This document shows positions 1 through 10,767 of a stretch of 64,000 bases of DNA, piece after piece; the stretch's first letter is position 1; every line of letters starts with the position of its first letter. The DNA lies in the NCBI GenBank assembly GCA_963924555.1, contig OZ004591.1, forward strand, positions 1,984,001 through 2,048,000, given 5' to 3'. The notes beneath the pieces are model-generated. The model was given only the letters and a program-made list of their open reading frames with translations, was not told where the DNA came from and searched no databases. The DNA comes from Crambe crambe. Its lineage: Eukaryota; Porifera; Demospongiae; Poecilosclerida; Crambeidae. The position numbers and the translations under genes are program-made.

Positions 1-3000
1 TCACTTGATCACTGTACAGAGACCGTATATGACCTCATCTTCACTGACTACATCGGCCTCTTTGCTCTGCGAGACTCTCAGCACTTCTACATGTATAAGG
101 TACTAACAAACTTTGAAGCTGCTAAAAGAAGTCCTCCAGGGTGGTTAGATTGGTTGCTAAGGATATAATCCCTGGCTTCAATGTGAATGGATCCCATGAA
201 ATACAGAACTCACAATGACTGCTTTTTGCAGATGAAATAAACTCTACTCAACAAACTCTCTCCCAAAAGTGTCCCTATCGAAGTTCTGCTGTAATAATCA
301 CAGTGTCCCCCACTTATAAATGCAGGGCGGGCCATCCTGTTTTGGATATAGAAACTACACTAATAATATTATAAGCATCCTGTTGAAAGTACAGTTAGGG
401 AAGATCACATGTAATATGTTAGGATCTGAGTGCTAGTAATTTCATAATTATGTCTCGTGTGTTATGCATACAGTGTAGGATCCGAGTGCTGGATTCTTTT
501 GGGACTGAACCGATATGTAAGTCTTTCATTTCAGAAATACACAGCACTAAAGTTCTAACCCTTACGTACGTAGCACTGCACACATGCATGTGCCAGTAGC
601 TTCACATTAAATGAAGGTGATGCTTCCACTGGCATTAATTTGCTATTGAATATCCATGTACGCCATGCCACCAGTCAACCCAGCTGAAAATAGGTTCGTA
701 CCTGGAATTTCCAGGGTAGAAATCAAACTCTCCAATATCAGTTGTGGTCCAGGTTGGACTTCGGGGTGCCCACTTGCTGCGAGGAGATAGTCAGTCCTCC
801 TGTGAGTTCCTAGCCCGGGCTCCAGGTGATTGCCAGCAAGTGCACAGGCATCCTGGTGCATGTGACTCTCAGCTGGCAGCTAGCTAGCTAGTGTTACGAT
901 TATATGTCCCCTCCCCAAGTTATAACAATATTGAGGTCATTCTTCTCTTCCAGACAACTTTCGGACTAAGAACTTCCAAGTGAATGATGCCATGGGGATG
1001 TTTAGTAACTGGAACTTTGAGGAACCCCGACAGTTCTGGACCCTCTTCCCTCACACCCCTGACAATTCCTTCCTGGGTTTCGTGGTGGAGGTCCCTTCCC
1101 TTTCCCCCTCCAACCAGACAAGAGAGAACCAGGGAGTCGTGTACGGGAAAGAGGCGTGGTACACATTCGGAAAAGAGGACTACCTCAATACGATTGGAGA
1201 AGTGATACAGCTCCATGCCACCTTTAGGGTATGTCGTTTGTAATAAAATTGATTACCCACGCATGTACAAACAGGCTAGGCTGTAACGATTATAATGATG
1301 AAATTGTAAACACAGTTTTCTCCAAATAAAGTCTATTCGCGTTTTAATATGATTATTCATTACCAAATTTCAAATTTGGTTGGTCAGCTCTCTGCTAATA
1401 TTTAAATATGGAAAGTCAGAGCATGCAGATTATTATAGTGGGATCACATGACTGCAAATACATTATTCAGTCGTGATTATAACCATGTATGTACAAACTG
1501 GAATCTATTCTAAATTTTTTACAAGTGAGATGAGATGCATTACTGTAGCACAGAAAAATAAAGTATAGCTTGCTGATTTATTATCATAGGCCCTTCCAGG
1601 GTTCTCCCCACGGTGCTTGAATACCACCATTTATTGGCTATTAATTTAAATACAGTTTTAACCACATGAAAGAAAAATGGGCCCCTCTAACACCCTTTGG
1701 GGAGAACCTAGCCTCGTACCCAGGCCCGCTTTTCCACCGCCCCGCGAAAAAAGCGGGCCTGGGTACAAGGCTAGGGAGAACCTTCCCTTCTTGGTTGAAG
1801 TTTGACTATAAAAGGACTAGTCTACTGTTGCCTTAACACTTTATGACAAAACATTATTTTGTCATCCCAACAATATTTTTGTTATTATGTTATTATTGTT
1901 GATATTATTGTTATTTTGTTAACTATAATTATATTATCGTTGATATTATTGTTATTATTATTGTTATTATTGTTGATATTATTGTTGTTTGATGTTATTT
2001 TGTTATCCCTACATTAACTAACAATGTATTGATTGTTTACTAAAGAAGTTGCTTTGCTATGAGTTATTTTTCAACTTCTCTGTGCTTCTAAACAGTGTAT
2101 ATGCTCTCTGATCATTATCTTGAATCTCGTAATACTTCAAGTCTTGTTGCTCTTGACTTACTGTTTCCTTGCTGCCCATGCTTTGACAGTGCTAGTGGCA
2201 GAGAAAGATGAGGAATTAGTAATTGAAAAAGAAATCAATCCAGCTAGGTTGTCAATGTCGATTTCTGCTATACTAGTACTAAGCTTCCTTATACATACCA
2301 TATCCATAAATGTAGCTAGCAGTGAAATGTCTCACATTTTTGCTTTGGGAAAGTTGAAATGCTTTCCAGCCAACTCAGAAATTGCTTGAAGGAAGGAAAA
2401 ATTAATTAGTTTGTATGTAGGTAAGGCCACCAGAAGGCATTGCGATTAGCTTAGTAACAACATACGTAGAACGTTTATGTTGTAGCTGTCGCAGTCAGTG
2501 CCATAATCTCAGGCATAAGGATCGATCCACAAGTGTGCTGTGTTGTAGGTATGATTGGTAGTAAGCAATAATCATACCTACTTGCCATACCTGGTAGGCA
2601 TGGATCACTGCCTGCATTGACGGCTTTTCTTTGTAGCTATATGCGACCCTTTACCAGGTTTCAGGAACGGTTAACAATAAAAAAGGTGGGTGTGGCTGGG
2701 CAAGTTGCTAATGTGTGCAGGACCTGGTGTGTGTGCAGTCAATGACTCTTCTACTCTTACGAACACCATAGGCCCCAGAGATCGGTCTTGGTGCCCTCTC
2801 TGGTCAAAATCTTGGGCCAGATCCCATATTATTTTCAGCCAACTGGTGTTTGTTGCAATCAGTGTAGGTTTATTGCTGTCTCTGGTGCTTTGCTTGTTGC
2901 TCTTTATGACTCAGTGCTATTACGTCATGCGTCACAGACGATTACTGAGAGATTATAAACCCCACCGAATTCTGGGGGGTTTTAGTGCTTGCGTGAACAG

Positions 3001-6000
3001 TGGGTACTGAGCCTAACCCCCGCATAACTGGGGGGTTTTAGTGCTTGTGTGAACAGTGGGTACTGGGCCTAACCCCCGCATAACTGGGGGGTTTTAGTGC
3101 TTGTGTGAACAGTGGGTACTGGGCCTAACCCCCGCATAACTGGGGGGTTTTAGTGCTTGCGTGAACAGTGGGTACTGGGCCTAACCCCCGCATAACTGGG
3201 GGGTTTTAGTGCTTGTGTGAACAGTGGGTACTGGGCCTAACCCCCCGCATAACTGGGGGGTTTTAGTGCTTGTGTGAACAGTGGGTACTGGGCCTAACCC
3301 CCGCATAACTTTAGAGCCTGGTACAAGGCTAGTGAGTGTGTCTTGGGTTTACCCAATGGTGTTGCAAAAGAAGCTGAGATAGTATTACCTCCCTAGTGTG
3401 GGGTGAGTGTAGCAATCATTAATTTCAATCCATTAAATAAGTTTTCATTTCCTTGTAGGAGACAAGCAAGTCCTTCCCCACACACATAGTGAACCATGGC
3501 ATCTTGCCTGCTGAGAAGCTTCACAGGTGAGAGTGTTACTTAGTAATCACCAGCTGTTACTTCCTGTAGCGATAACCTTTAGTGGTGGCTGGCTTACTCC
3601 TTTAGTGGTTGCTGGCTTAATAACCTTTAGTGGTTGCTGTCTTACTTCTTTTAATGGCCTCTTCTTGTTTATGATAACAGTCATACATAGATACAGAGTT
3701 TTGCAGGTTGCTTGTCATATTGCAAAATGCTAATACAAAAGTTGTGACAACTAAATCAACAATGTAGTAAAGCTGAATAGAAATAGATCTGTGAATCTCA
3801 TGCATAATCAGGGTTATAATTTTATGTTGGAACTTGTTTAATAATTATCATGGTCCCCATGGCCTAGATTTACATCGTATAATTATAAGAAACTATGTTT
3901 CTTTATGCCCAGGACTTCTAACCCAGGAACCCAAGACTTCTACTTGTAGTGCATGATCTGGTTTTCGGCAGCTAAAATCTGCACTTTGCAGAAATTCCCA
4001 TTCCATTCAGTAGCAATTTAATGAAACAAGAATGAATTTTTAAGATACTAATATATAGTGTAGTGAAATTCAGTAGTACTATAGCACTGTACTATCTAAT
4101 TTAATTAGCTAGCAGACACAGGTGAGCATGCTCAGAATTCAAATTCAAAATAGCTACAAGAAGCAGTCAAAATGCCAAAAGGGTACTCAAAAGACCTTAG
4201 ATGGCGGATAATTTGGAAGTATCTTCTACAAAAGAAGACAATAAAAGAGATTTCTAGGGAACTGTATGTAAACATCAGGTCAATTGAGAGATACATCTAT
4301 CTTTTTTATACAACTGAGGATGTATCACCTAAACGCCAAAGGCACGGTCCATTACCACAAATGAGTGAGTTTGAGGAAATCACCATTTTAGAGACGCTGC
4401 TGAGTACATCCAGCATGTATCTTCGTGAGATACAACAAAAGCTGTTACATATAACAGGATCCCGGTATGATTGTGCTACTATTTGCCGTACCATCAAAAG
4501 ACTGGGTATGACTAGACAGAAAATGCGTCTAGTAGCAAGACAAAGGTGTGATGTTCAGAGAGCAAAATTTATCTCTGAAATAATGGAATTTAACCCCAAA
4601 ACTTTAATTTTCATCGATGAAACTGGATCAAACCACCGTAATACAATACGTAAATATGGATATGGTCTTCAAGGCATGACACCTGTTTCCCACAAATTTA
4701 CTGTATATGGTAAGAGGTTGTCAGCCATAGGGATACTGACTTTTCGGGGAATAGAAGATGTTTATATTGCAGAAGGAAATGTGAACTCTGACATTTTTAT
4801 GAATTTTGTACAACGGTGCTTACTTCCTATACTACTTCCATTCGATGGTGGCGATAATCCCTGTTCTGTAGTCATACTTGACAATGCATCTATCCACCAT
4901 GTAGAAGCAGTAACTCAATTGATTTCAGCCACTGGTGCTTTAGTACGATTTTTACCACCTTACTCCCCTGACTTGAATCCCATCGAGGAAGCATTTAGTC
5001 AAGTGAAGTCATACCTTAGAGATAATGAACTAAGTTATCAATCCACAAACACACCTAGAATCATATTCGCTGAAGCATTTGCTTCAATTACTCCACTAGA
5101 TTGTGCAAATTATATTAAACATGCAGGTTATATGTAATTTTTCATATATTTTTTAGAGACTGATATTCTGAGAAAGTTTTATGACCAGACTGAAGTTGCA
5201 GGATCATTTCATATTATAGCTAGTCTAGATCTTATGGCCATGGGTTAGTTTTAGGTAACCAAAGCAGTTCTTAAATAGAATAGTGCATAACAAATTAAGA
5301 CCCCTAATGCTTGCTCCATAATCTTAGTGGGTGCTAAGATCAGAATGTATGGTAATATTAGCCTTACAATTTATCCATCAGCTCTAAAATACTACTCTTT
5401 TGTTTTTGAAAGTCACTATCTGTTATAGCCCCAACCTCGAGCAACGAATAGAGTTCTTTAATTTGAGATATATAAATTGTCTTCAATTCAGCAGCTTTAA
5501 CAGGGGTAATCACAGTAGGGTTTCCTCTCTCTAAATTTACTGGTGAAAGATCACGTGATGGTAGAATTTTGGATTTCTTGAAATATGACCCTCTTGGAGG
5601 ATTTTCCATAGATGCATGCCTGCCTCCAACAATTGTTTCAGCCCATACACGATACTGTAGGTTACTGTATGTATGCCCATGTTTTTCTCTCAAGTTATCT
5701 GTTATATCATCAACTCTTGACATTCTGTCATCACTAGATCCTTTTTTTTTCTTTTTTGTTCCGTTAGATTCATCTTCAGAGCCTGAGGAGTCCTTCTTTC
5801 GTTTCTTGCTGCGTCCTTCACACCATACAGTTATAGTATTAGATTTTGTTTGAAGCGACTGGATCAGTTCATCAAAATCGTGATCGTTTCTAACCCATAT
5901 TCGCTTAGTTCCTTTGTAGAATCCAAAATCAAAATTGCAATCACTGTCAATAAGTCCATCACCAAATTGGGCAAGTATCTCTTTTCTAAAAGCCAATATT

Positions 6001-9000
6001 GAGCTCACTTCCCCCATATCAAGGTCACGCAACATGAATGTCTTGTGGTCAGCCCTTTTTTCATTGGGACAAATTATTTTCACACTAACTGATATAAGTG
6101 TAGGCTCAGTTACACTTGAGTCATGATCAGAATCTTCAACTGTACTCTTTGATGGACTAATGAGAATAGGGCTGTTACCACAGTCTTGTAGAGTATTCTG
6201 ACTCACACCTGCCCATTCTTGTTGATAAGGAGGCTGTGGCCAAGGGTAGTGATGGGGAGTCATCTGGCCATTACCAAAGAAGTAATTAGAATGCTGGTAG
6301 TAGGACATAGTTAGCTACACAGACTTGTACCTAGTACCTGGCTATTTTTTTTTTCAAATCTGGCTGATGCATAACAGTCACATGATGGTAAATTTACATG
6401 GAAATGCCCTGAAAATACCTTTCTATTCAGCTTTACTACATTGCTGATTTAGTTGTCATAACTTTTGTATTAGCATTTTGCAATGTGACAAGCAACCTGC
6501 AAAACTCTGTAGATACCTTCCTGATTTTGATTCTTGTCTGTGTGTACGGTACATACAGGTTGCTGCAGCAGTCAAAGGTATTTGTTGGTCTTGGCTTTCC
6601 CTATGATGGTATGTATGTATGTATGTATTATGTCAAATCACTGTGGACCCTTTACCAGATATTTTTCTATTAATTATACATAGGTCCTGGTCCATTTGAA
6701 GCTCTGGCTAGTGGTTGCTCCTTTATCCAGCCTCGGTTCCATCCACCTCATAGTGGGAAAAACACTGTAAGAACTCTACTGGGGTGGTACAGGAGATATA
6801 ATATTGCCCTCACTTATAATGGTTGGTCTGTTGCTCCTCTAAGTTTCGACCGGTCAAGTTGACCAGTACTTAGTTAAACAATGGCTGTTAGGTGTAATCC
6901 TGATAACACTATATCCCACAAGAGCAACTGCCAAATGTACTCCTGAGTGTATTCCTTTCACTCTTATTCAAATAATGACAACACTGAAGGTATCCCACAA
7001 GAGCACTACCACTACCAGGTGTACTCTTCCTTTCACCCTTACATGTATCCTTATAATGACCACATTGAAGGTATCCCACAAGAAATCTGCATAACCAGGT
7101 GTGCCTTATGAATGTACCATGTCACCCCCAATAATGGCAACACTGAATTGGTCCCATGAGAGCAGTACTGGGTGTAGCCCATCAGTCTCTTCCCTCGTCA
7201 CCATTTACATCTCTCCTTCGTGAACTTGTAGGAATTTTTTAAGAATAAACCAACGACACGAGAACTCAGTTCACAGGTAGAATACTTGGAAAACTTTGTC
7301 GGGGAACCTTATGTAAGTCTCTTTAAAACTAACCAATCAAGTTATAGTTAGCAGTCACATGACTTGTTGTATGCAGGTGTTTACTGTGGACATCAAGAAC
7401 CACACAGCTATTAAGAATGCTGTGTACAAGGCCATTCACAGGAAGGAGAGCACATCTTTCATCCCTCATGAATTCACTCAGAGGGTATGTTCCTAGGGTT
7501 ACCTTACTGCTTAGAGCATGGTGTTAAAGGTGTATGGAAGACGTACCCCCTCAAATTATCTAAGAGTTTCAGTGTAACGGTCAAGTTACGACACACATCT
7601 CTCAAGTAGCACTTGGTAGAGACTGCCTCTCTATTCAGACCACTTCCCAATATTTATTGTAATGTGATGATATCATGCTTATGTAATTATTTGATACATG
7701 TAGCAGTCACATGTACATGTATGAAATGTGTGTGAACACTTTCAATTGGAACCATCATGTCATGTTTATGTACATACATGTGTATAATGTTTGACATGAT
7801 TGGGTACTCGTGCTTACATAATGTATGTGTCCACGCACACACGCGCGCACACACACACATAATTGCAGGGAATGCTTGAACGAGTTGGAGCGTACTTATC
7901 GCACCAGAACTTTTGTGATGGGACGGATCTGGCACTCAAACGACCAGCCACTGCAAGCAGTACTTACGAACACCACACCCCCGGGGAGGCTGTGGACGGC
8001 ATCTTCACCAAGGACACCTGCTATTGGTCAGCTCCTGACGATAGTCATTGGTGGATGGTCGACTTAGGACAAGATTATTCTCTAAACAAGATTAGGATCA
8101 CTAATGCAGTGAGTGTGAAGTCAGATGCTCAATCACTACCTCAACCTGTGATCCTATGGATAGATCCTATGGGTAGAACCTTTTAGATCCTATGGGTAGA
8201 GCCTTTTAGATCCTATGGGTAGAGCCTTTGGTAGATCCTATGGGTAGAGCCTTTTAGATCCTATGGGTAGAGCCTTTGGTAGATCCTATGGGTAGAGCCT
8301 TTTAGATCCTATGGGTAGATCCTATGGATAAAGCCTATGGGTAGAGCCTTTTAGATCCTATGGGTAGATCCTATGGATAGATCCTATGGGTAGAGCCTTT
8401 TAGATCCTATGGGTAGAGCCTTTTAGATCCTATGGGTGGAGCCTTTTAGATCCTATGGGTAGAGCCTTTTAGATCCTATGGGTGGAGCCTTTTAGATCCT
8501 ATGGGTAGAGCCTTTGGTAGATCCTTGGGTAGAATCATGTCCCAGAATACTTGCATTACCAAAGGAAGAAAAGCGTCTAATGTTGCCCTAAGGGCCAATC
8601 ACATGAAGTGAGCCATCCAATGAAATACCTTCACAGAAGCATGACTGTATCGTCCACAATGAATCACATTCTAGCTCAATCAATCAGGGATGCTACTGCA
8701 GAGCTTATGTAACGGCCTGACACCTGATATTTTCTGGCCAACTATTGGCATAATTATGTCTGGTCATTATTTGTTTGTCAGGACAAAAGTATTGGTCAAA
8801 ATGCACACTGATGCAATATCCAGTTAAATGTAGGGACATCATGTCCAGTTAATATCAATTTCTTATCATAAGCACTGCAACTGCTACTATGAGTCTCATG
8901 AATCGTATTGGGAGGTTTGTATAGTGGATATTTTGGGACTAGCTTATTGTCCTTTAAAATGAGCATTGTGTGGTTGGTCAAATTTAATCATGACAATCTT

Positions 9001-9132: not shown

Positions 9133-10767
9133 ACAATGACTTGTTTAGGTTCAGAGGTTCAATTTGTATCAGCTTTGGTTCCTTGAAAAACGTCACTATT
9201 GCATCCTGAATTCACTAAGGGTCCCATGTTCCACTGTATTTGTTATGGGATGAATTCATTGTGCACTGTTATGAGATGGATTGTTAATGTTGTGATTATG
9301 CATGGCATGTTACGTACTTTGTTGCAGAAACAGTCTTCACAAAAACGAAATTTTATGGCGTCATAATGATAATTATGATGTTGTAACACTGAAAGAACTT
9401 TCTGAACATGTTGTTCTGTTGAATATACTCAATATTGAAAGCATCTCATAGGGAGGTTTTTTGTATAGTGTCATAAAGAGGGTTGACTAAGAGAGGCTCC
9501 ACTGTATGTCACGCTGTTCCTTTATTACAGCTCTCACAAACACTTTACGGTCTTGAAATTATGTGCACTGGGAGGTTCCAATGTGATTCCTCCCCTTGGG
9601 AATAAGTCAGTGTATCCATCACTCTATTCCATACAGTTTGAGTGGGTCCTTGCCAAGAGCTGGGGTGTGGTCTTCATGGATCCTTTCACTGTCACTCTGA
9701 GCAACTCCAAGGGGAAACAGGTGGCCAGCAAGACCTTCACTGATAGTAGAACGTTTTACCTCTGGGAGGATATTAATGTCAGGGCTCGTTTTGTCAGGCT
9801 CGACTCCCTCAACTATGAAACTCCTCGCTACTTTGTGATTTGTGGCGTCGAGGTCTTTGGGAGTTCCAGCAAGCATCCCATTTGGCCGGATTTGACCTTA
9901 TTGTGGGTTCAGAGGTCGAAGGTGGGTTGGTCGTGCAAGAAGACCTGCAAGTCTAAAGGGATGATATGTGAACCGGCTCACTTTAGAGTCCTCAATCACC
10001 CCAGAGTCCTCACAGAGGAGTTCAACTGCTCCACTACAAAGACAATCAGCACTCAGTAGGTGTTTGTGTGCCTTTCGTCCTTTCTGTCAGTCTGTTTGCC
10101 TCTTTGTCAGTCAGTCTGTCTGTCAGTCAGTCTGTGTGCCTTTCTGTCAGTCAGTCTATATGTCTGTCTTTCTTTCTTTCTGTCAGTCAGTCAGTCAGTC
10201 TGTCTGTCTGTCTGTCTGTCGGTCTGTGGGCCTTTCTGTCAGTCTGTCTGCCTTGCTGTCAGTCAGTCAGTGTGTGTGCCTCTCTGTCAGTAAGTCAGTG
10301 TGTCTGCTTTTGCCTTTCTGTCAGTCAGTCTACTGTAGTGTAAATGTTGTATGATGGATACCTCTAGGTATGCTGATTTCATACCTGCATGGAGTGTAGG
10401 AGATGATGAGGAGCTTGGCATATCCAAAGGATCTTGTGTCATGAATGGGAACACAATGTTACTATCATGTGCAGGTCAGTCAGTACAATGTAGACAATAG
10501 ATCCTGAAAGGTCTTAGAAACAGATGCACAACACTGCTTGTGGGTGTGGTAGGTTCCCTGTTTCCATGGATATAATAGTTGACCTCTGAGATGGGGGTGC
10601 ATGACCTTTCTACTACAGTGTCTCTTGTCCCTGTTTGACAGGTGTCCCTGTATCCATGACATTGATATGATGTACTTTATTGCACAGGTCATAATGACAA
10701 TTACCAAAGACTCTGCCCATGTCGAAAGTTCACTAAAGGTCAAATCGCAGTACCTCCTCCATCATAG
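1..10767 (+). CDS. MGAT5: MGAT5-type alpha-1,6-mannosylglycoprotein 6-beta-N-acetylglucosaminyltransferase with inserted F5/8C domain (5' end outside window)
   Basis: This is a Golgi GT18 enzyme family that adds beta-1,6 GlcNAc to N-glycans. Twelve exons join in phase to 550 residues: 1-99, 474-516, 954-1228, 3459-3526, 6559-6608, 6684-6766, 7232-7312, 7377-7484, 7869-8108, 9637-10055, 10368-10474 and 10688-10767. Conserved blocks seen are RVLDSFGTEP, LFPHTPDNSFLGFVVE, VFVGLGFPYDG followed by GPGPFEALASGC, and the C-terminal Cys-rich tail (WSCKKTCKSKGMICEP, then LLSCAGHNDNYQRLCPCR). Between FCDG and WPDLTLLWVQ, where vertebrate MGAT5 runs straight on, about 150 residues form an F5/8C domain: ALKRPATASSTY, AVDGIF, WWMVDLG, then FVRLDSLNYETPRYFVICGVEVFG-like text. 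That domain is split by the 8109-9636 intron. The N-terminal cytoplasmic, TM and stem parts lie left of the window. Whether the enzyme is active cannot be judged from sequence alone. Confidence 0.9.
1709..1773. repeat. Short foldback element flanked by direct repeats
   Basis: The two arms, TAGCCTCGTACCCAGGCCCG and its near-perfect inverse, surround a GC-rich loop. GGGAGAACC occurs immediately on both sides (1700-1708 and 1774-1782), which looks like an 8-9 bp target duplication. Related half or whole copies occur at 3312-3332, 19892-19925, 24252-24314 and near 44868. It lies in an MGAT5 intron. Confidence 0.65.
1855..2010. repeat. GTTATTATT-rich low-complexity tract
   Basis: Imperfect TTATTGTTGATATTATTG units repeat across an MGAT5 intron. 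The rest of this intron (1229-3458) holds no gene I can recognise. Confidence 0.6.
2961..3310. repeat. Minisatellite, about 56-bp unit, six copies
   Basis: Units read ACCCCCGCATAACTGGGGGG, then TTTTAGTGCTTGTGTGAACA, then GTGGGTACTGGGCCTA. They are repeated almost without change, so the array is young. Each unit contains a small palindrome (CCCCC...GGGGG) that could form a hairpin. It lies in an MGAT5 intron just upstream of the exon at 3459. Confidence 0.85.
3694..3783 (+). repeat. Left terminal inverted repeat of the Tc1/mariner element
   Basis: Ninety bases, inverted match to 6420-6509 with about three mismatches. The outermost bases are CAGAG after a TA. Confidence 0.9.
4172..5137 (+). 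CDS. IS630/Tc1-like DDE transposase
   Basis: This is the cut-and-paste transposase, 321 residues, with no internal stops. The N-terminal helix-turn-helix begins YSKDLRWRIIWKYLL and contains TIKEISRELYVNIRSIERY. The DDE_3-type catalytic core has the first Asp in FIDETG (about residue 150), the second in VILDNASIHH (about 237) and the Glu in PPYSPDLNPIEEAF (about 272). That gives the DD34E spacing typical of Tc1-like enzymes. The closest relatives I recall are full-length copies in corals, anemones and sponges. The start ATG follows an A-rich leader, and the next in-frame stop is at 5135-5137. It is convergent with the accessory ORF, 226 bp away. All three catalytic residues are present, so it could be active. 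Confidence 0.93.
   Translation: MPKGYSKDLRWRIIWKYLLQKKTIKEISRELYVNIRSIERYIYLFYTTEDVSPKRQRHGPLPQMSEFEEITILETLLSTSSMYLREIQQKLLHITGSRYDCATICRTIKRLGMTRQKMRLVARQRCDVQRAKFISEIMEFNPKTLIFIDETGSNHRNTIRKYGYGLQGMTPVSHKFTVYGKRLSAIGILTFRGIEDVYIAEGNVNSDIFMNFVQRCLLPILLPFDGGDNPCSVVILDNASIHHVEAVTQLISATGALVRFLPPYSPDLNPIEEAFSQVKSYLRDNELSYQSTNTPRIIFAEAFASITPLDCANYIKHAGYM
5364..6308 (-). CDS. Transposon accessory protein: PB1/ubiquitin-like N-terminal half, basic linker, HG/QYR-WA block, SHOCT-like tail
   Basis: A 314-residue ORF lies wholly inside the transposon on the opposite strand. Residues 1-70 are low-complexity (Pro, Tyr, Gln, Ser). Residues 71-165 look like a PB1 or ubiquitin-like fold: ISVSVKIICPNEKRADHKTF, then a region ending KGTKRIWVRNDHDFDELIQS. 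Residues 167-195 are Lys/Ser/Glu rich (RSKKRKKD, GTKKKKKG), a likely nuclear signal. Next comes a block with EKHGHTYSNLQYRVWAETIV. The last 40 residues (YISQIKELYSLLEVGAITDS followed by DFQKQKSSILELMDKL) resemble a SHOCT oligomerisation motif. I recall similar uncharacterised proteins in coral and sponge gene models. Its role in transposition is unknown. A regulatory, nuclear or oligomerising partner of the transposase is inference. Confidence 0.75.
   Translation of the reverse strand: MSYYQHSNYFFGNGQMTPHHYPWPQPPYQQEWAGVSQNTLQDCGNSPILISPSKSTVEDSDHDSSVTEPTLISVSVKIICPNEKRADHKTFMLRDLDMGEVSSILAFRKEILAQFGDGLIDSDCNFDFGFYKGTKRIWVRNDHDFDELIQSLQTKSNTITVWCEGRSKKRKKDSSGSEDESNGTKKKKKGSSDDRMSRVDDITDNLREKHGHTYSNLQYRVWAETIVGGRHASMENPPRGSYFKKSKILPSRDLSPVNLERGNPTVITPVKAAELKTIYISQIKELYSLLEVGAITDSDFQKQKSSILELMDKL
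6420..6509 (-). repeat. Right terminal inverted repeat of the Tc1/mariner element
   Basis: Inverse of 3694-3783. It ends CTCTG followed by the TA duplication at 6510-6511. Confidence 0.9.
6905..7165. repeat. Degenerate tandem repeat (TATCCCACAAGAGCACTACC-like units)
   Basis: About four diverged 60-80 bp units share 'atcccacaagagca', 'aggtgtactc' and 'aataatgacaacactgaa'. They fill the MGAT5 intron between 6767 and 7231. Confidence 0.6.
8148..8540. repeat. Minisatellite GATCCTATGGGTAGAGCCTT
   Basis: Units of roughly 25 bp (GATCCTATGGGTAGAGCC plus TTTTA or TTTGGTA) repeat about 15 times in the long intron that splits the F5/8C domain of the MGAT5 gene. The rest of this intron (8541-9636) has a GA run and no recognisable gene. 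Confidence 0.85.
9080..9129. repeat. (GA)n microsatellite
   Basis: About 24 uninterrupted AG dinucleotides in the MGAT5 intron. Confidence 0.95.
10075..10335. repeat. TCTGTCAGTCAG-type tandem repeat
   Basis: TCTG/TCAG tetranucleotide mixtures fill the MGAT5 intron 10056-10367. The array is open in all three forward frames, which creates spurious Ser/Val/Cys-rich ORFs. Confidence 0.9.

Follow-up and report, generated by a model that had tools for sequence, protein, structure and literature searches.

The element at positions 3694 to 6509 of the window, i.e., the whole 64,000-nucleotide stretch of Crambe crambe DNA that was analysed, is best explained as an autonomous element with two genes, belonging to a large DD34E clade of Tc1/mariner transposons. 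The two genes, a transposase gene (ORF1) and a second, convergent gene (ORF2), lie between the same TA-flanked ends, they move together, they diverge together, and both were constrained. Since the pair stayed together across many distantly related elements of the same genome, it is very probable that the second protein serves the element in some way.

The TA target-site duplication was read directly from the sequence at 3692..3693 on the left and at 6510..6511 on the right side. Inside of it lie the terminal inverted repeats of 90 bp each, at 3694..3783 (forward strand) and 6420..6509 (reverse strand). Comparison of the arms 3692-3783 and 6420-6511, which are 92 nt long with the flanking TA included, revealed that they are 97% complementary. 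ORF1 (4172..5137, forward strand) encodes a Tc1-like transposase of 321 aa, which matched the DDE_3-type catalytic domain at 6.7e-29. Its catalytic residues are D149, D237 and E272, and the last two are 34 residues apart. ORF2 (5364..6308, reverse strand) encodes 314 aa, and its assignment is based on the ORF list, the genome matches and the family alignment. The precise TA-flanked 90-bp ends, the intact DD34E transposase and the intact 314-residue frame on the other strand, all claimed by the sequence-only reading, were thus confirmed.

The assignment of ORF1 was also analyzed at the family level. The DDE_3 domain was found in 17 of 17 family members, and the spacing between the second D and the E was 34 in the window and in 12 of 14 elements (it was 35 in L054, and L059 was missed by the pattern). 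HTH_23 was detected in 15 of the 17 members (E up to 0.01), revealing an N-terminal helix-turn-helix region for the family; in the window ORF1 alone it stayed below the Pfam cut-offs. The family profile matched Pax-type structures and, at 3e-5, the SB100X structure. No PB1 domain was found in any ORF1 family member at E 0.01 or better.

The surroundings of the element contain a 56-bp tandem repeat to its left (2972-3310, six copies, 97% matches) and, at 9553-10331, an ORF with a glycosyltransferase 18 match (4.4e-12) and a TCTG tandem array shortly behind it. ORFs near the element match the F5/8 type C, glycosyltransferase 18 and leucine-rich repeat families.

The structure of ORF2 was predicted with a single-chain AF2 model built from 17 family members (mean pLDDT 72, pTM 0.38). 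It comprises a domain at residues 71-165, two helices at residues 191-227 and a hairpin at residues 269-313, while residues 1-61 were mostly of low confidence. The domain (5814..6098, reverse strand; AF2 model, Foldseek, residue count) has the predicted order β-β-α-β-β-α-β, which is that of the PB1 fold. In the Foldseek ranking the top 22 chains had Z values of 10.2 to 8.0, and PB1 is named in 17 of their titles; the remaining five (9ejl, 2npt, 2c60, 2o2v and 2dyb) are PB1-bearing proteins as well. Other ubiquitin-like and unrelated chains appeared from Z ~7.8 downward. The Pfam PB1 model matched three of the 17 family members (best 1.7e-4) and did not match the window ORF2 at E up to 1. A basic residue in strand 1, K77 in the window ORF2, which we take to be the mark of a type II PB1 domain, was present in 14 of the 14 proteins having this position (11 Lys and 3 Arg), some of which are close copies. 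The loop between strands 3 and 4 contains zero or one acidic residue in the four columns counted (15 of the 17 members have letters there). Acidic residues are also present at the start of helix 2 in the family alignment, outside the scored OPCA columns, and, thus, the type II label is only tentative. The conservation of the basic residue in strand 1 suggests an acidic partner for ORF2.

The PB1-like domain is followed by two basic clusters (residues 166-189; 5742..5813, reverse strand), which may act as nuclear localisation signals, judged from the sequence and the family alignment. The two helices downstream carry a conserved LxxxHG..Y...QxRxWAE block (residues 191-241; 5586..5738, reverse strand; family alignment and models). 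At the C-terminus a SHOCT-like helical hairpin is predicted from Pfam matches and models (residues 269-313; 5370..5504, reverse strand). When the C-terminal half was modelled separately, it was again helical, and no diagnostic structure match was obtained for it. The PB1/ubiquitin-like half that had been proposed from the sequence is therefore supported by the predicted fold and the Foldseek ranking, and the proposed basic patch and HG...QYRVWAE block recur across the family alignment. For the proposed SHOCT-like tail, Pfam SHOCT was matched by 13 of the 17 family members (best 2e-6, counting hits up to E 0.5), whereas the tail of the window ORF2 itself (residues 282-308, E 0.0031) reached 17.6 bits and stayed under the Pfam cut-off of 27.

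Further copies of the element were found in the 143-Mb assembly, in which the window lies on contig C14. One copy is on C3, older ones are on C10 and C1, and a cluster is on C11. The copy on C3 shares 99.74% identity with the window element over 2,696 nt and is about 150 bp longer near the left end; its inverted ends and flanking TA were read directly, and its flanks are unrelated. The flanks of the C10, C1, C3 and window copies are unrelated to the C11 flanks and to each other. Among 20 copies examined, ORF2 is open to 314 aa only in the window and on C3. In these two copies both frames are open, and an origin of the pair purely as an artefact of decay was rejected.

On C11, about 25 places between ~1.6 and 3.8 Mb match the element. 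The 16 C11 copies examined have flanking DNA in common. Most of them therefore arose by segmental duplication of a single old insertion and do not count as independent transposition events; the C11 stretch has multiplied as a large segmental repeat. In L016-L020, five of these copies, the match ends at element position 1854; the right end and the greater part of ORF2 are absent there or have been displaced. The decayed copies L003-L020 have an unusual deletion spectrum: compared with the window it peaks at 8-10 nt, a range that takes in 37 of the 78 distinct deletions (22 are exactly 10 nt long), and 34 of these 37 show microhomology of at most 2 nt. Because the C11 flanks have the same peak, e.g., 8 of 23 minority gaps in the left flank are exactly 10 nt, it belongs to the region or the genome rather than to the element.

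The window ORF2 and ORF1 were also used, in this order, as queries to search for more distant relatives. At least 133 matches each were obtained (126 of 205 and 124 of 338 candidates were scored), and the window's own subfamily was left out (65 and 47 rows). This left at least 68 diverged ORF2 matches and at least 86 diverged ORF1 matches, the latter making 78 places after merging of pieces. Fifty of the 68 listed ORF2 matches are convergent to an ORF1, four lie close to one in a different orientation, and 14 lack an ORF1 match within 5 kb. By our own arithmetic, less than one such neighbour pair is expected by chance. Because some of the pairs are recent copies of each other, the 50 pairs are not 50 independent families. 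Among the matches listed, 24 of the 78 ORF1 places have no ORF2 match.

Nineteen diverged loci (L047 and L051-L068) were examined; they were picked from paired places and are thus uninformative about the frequency of pairing. In 12 of them both ORFs are open, with at least 320 aa for ORF1 and at least 276 aa for ORF2, and one of the 12, L060, has lost the C-terminal tail of ORF2. TA-flanked inverted ends around both ORF regions, above the best of 20 shuffles, were found in 11 of the 19 loci, and these elements are 2,182 to 2,413 bp long. The other eight (L047, L053, L058, L059, L060, L062, L063 and L066) stayed below this threshold; in the window element itself the scan settled on an internal register of its terminal repeat. 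L055 and L056, which sit at unrelated sites, show no difference over 2,282 nt, a stretch that runs precisely from one TA to the other, and L061 and L062 have 99.5% identity over 2,317 nt. In L056 and L058 an apparent second Tc1-like end lies directly beside the TA, which suggests insertion into or next to related elements. Identities to the window are 33-47% for ORF1 and 24-32% for ORF2 (16 others in each case). The pairwise distances of ORF1 and ORF2 among 14 elements are correlated with r=0.82, with some ORF2s being partial, and none of 10,000 permutations was as high. Diverged elements thus carry both frames, and the window copy is not a chance nested insertion among copies lacking ORF2.

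Constraint was analyzed by comparing the window with 18 decayed copies (L003-L020), using columns with at least eight copies and regarding a difference as fixed if at least 90% had the same base. Fixed differences were seen at 53 of 911 non-coding sites, at 15 of 963 sites in ORF1 and at 18 of 942 sites in ORF2; the effective sample is small, because the decayed copies stand for about three insertions. Before decay, ORF1 and ORF2 thus evolved more slowly than the non-coding part (p 7.2e-7 and 9.7e-6). Changes private to one decayed copy numbered 57 in the non-coding part, 80 in ORF1 and 72 in ORF2, and after decay the two genes were not slower than the non-coding part (p 0.09 and 0.27). Among the fixed changes, 10 of 15 in ORF1 were synonymous, a clear excess (p 0.001), and 8 of 18 in ORF2, a marginal one (p 0.06). 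In six chosen diverged pairs, 60-64% of the third and 27-37% of the second codon positions of ORF2 are different, and ORF1 shows the same pattern. The recent pair L059/L060 gave ratios of 0.73 for ORF2 and 0.92 for ORF1, without a sign of constraint in either. The conserved convergent pairing, the correlated divergence, the shared ends, the recent two-gene copies and the constraint on both genes thus support the view of the sequence-only reading that ORF2 is part of the element and has been retained by selection. Regarding dN/dS of ORF2, the slower change and the codon pattern of the diverged pairs are in line with selection, the synonymous excess is marginal, and the L059/L060 ratio shows little constraint.

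A derivative without a functional ORF2 has also spread. In ORF2, a 5-nt deletion is common to all 13 decayed copies aligned over the respective region (L003-L015; on C11, C10 and C1), and a 7-nt deletion to 12 of them. When read from the ATG, ORF2 stops at 69 aa or earlier in these copies. The two shared frameshifts point to an ORF2-defective founder. ORF1 is still open in the C11 copies L009, L016 and L018, and in the latter two the match ends before most of ORF2. On C10 and C1 the ends are bordered by TA and the flanks are unrelated, but ORF1 of these copies is broken. The defective derivative reached at least three unlinked, TA-flanked sites (C11, C10 and C1), and, thus, ORF2 is not strictly needed in cis. 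The derivative may have used ORF2 from intact copies, or the reaction itself may do without it.

How ORF2 might serve the element can be outlined as follows. ORF1 would bind the ends and would cut and paste at TA, and ORF2 would be made from the opposite end of the element. The basic clusters would take ORF2 into the nucleus, the basic PB1 face would dock onto an acidic partner, either a host PB1 protein or another acidic surface, and the C-terminal helical modules would contact the transposase, the ends or chromatin. We see about an even chance that ORF2 is such a nuclear, PB1-docked accessory protein, which promotes or regulates transposition and also works when provided in trans. Against this reading stand the spread of the ORF2-defective derivative, the 24 listed ORF1 places lacking an ORF2 match, the low constraint in L059/L060, the marginal synonymous excess of ORF2 and the ambiguous type of the PB1 domain. 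A more specific version, in which a clade-wide, element-borne PB1 adaptor, perhaps of type II, connects the machinery of transposition to a PB1 scaffold or signalling protein of the host, is rather doubtful. If true, it would mean that a eukaryotic DNA transposon controls by docking where or when movement happens.

Less probable than the accessory role, but a serious candidate, is a protein that is encoded by the element and directed at the host, e.g., against silencing or at PB1-based signalling, and acts outside of the transposition reaction. The PB1 fold is a host-type docking module, the conserved basic residue points to an acidic partner, no ORF1 family member matched PB1 at E 0.01 or better, and the ORF2-defective derivative was still able to spread; however, a direct partner would explain the close parallel divergence of ORF2 and the transposase no less well. 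It is quite unlikely that ORF2 limits transposition as a brake or titrator instead of helping it. The derivative without a working ORF2 did reach several sites, although the C11 copies mostly stem from segmental duplication, but the intact two-gene form also moved recently, as the pairs L055/L056 and window/C3 show. A chance nested ORF or a host gene captured by the window copy only was rejected as next to impossible, in view of the diverged convergent pairs, the ends shared around both genes and the co-divergence.

Typical Tc1/mariner members encode only a transposase, and to our knowledge these transposases serve as single-protein tools that need no element-encoded partner. The accessory protein of PIF/Harbinger elements is Myb-like and not of the PB1 type. 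The window element resembles Sleeping Beauty and other DD34E members of the Tc1/mariner (IS630-Tc1-mariner) group in the DDE_3 domain, the 34-residue D-E spacing, the TA target and the inverted ends, and differs from typical members in the extra convergent gene. That ORF2 stayed paired with transposases of only 33-47% identity to the window ORF1 suggests a need, or an advantage, for which single-gene elements have another solution. No description of a PB1 protein within a Tc1/mariner element was found in the literature searched, with Repbase outside its scope.

The IS630-Tc1-mariner transposons of Paramecium, as portrayed in the consulted part of PMC5405496, also contain a transposase and an ORF2 of unknown function, which is common to all described elements. 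The likeness is one of description, and they differ in their ciliate hosts, in the mostly D32E spacing and in the tyrosine recombinase of the larger ones (PMC5405496). Tec and TBE of ciliates are likewise of the DD34E Tc1/mariner type with extra ORFs, one of which is in the complement in Tec; they differ in having three ORFs each, a recombinase (Tec) or a zinc finger protein (TBE), and, in Tec, very long inverted ends, and the consulted part of this source mentions no PB1 protein (PMC7325037). MUSTANG-B genes of plants join PB1 to transposon-derived machinery, but, going by the sections consulted, they are domesticated MULE genes with PB1 fused to the transposase, and not a separate gene of a mobile element (PMC3435246, PMC8616336). 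PIF/Harbinger belongs to another superfamily and is a working analogue of the window element, because its mobilisation, according to the consulted part of PMC2836001, requires two element-encoded proteins. For the window element, docking of the PB1 type would allow a connection between a DNA transposon and host proteins to be tested by standard transposition assays.
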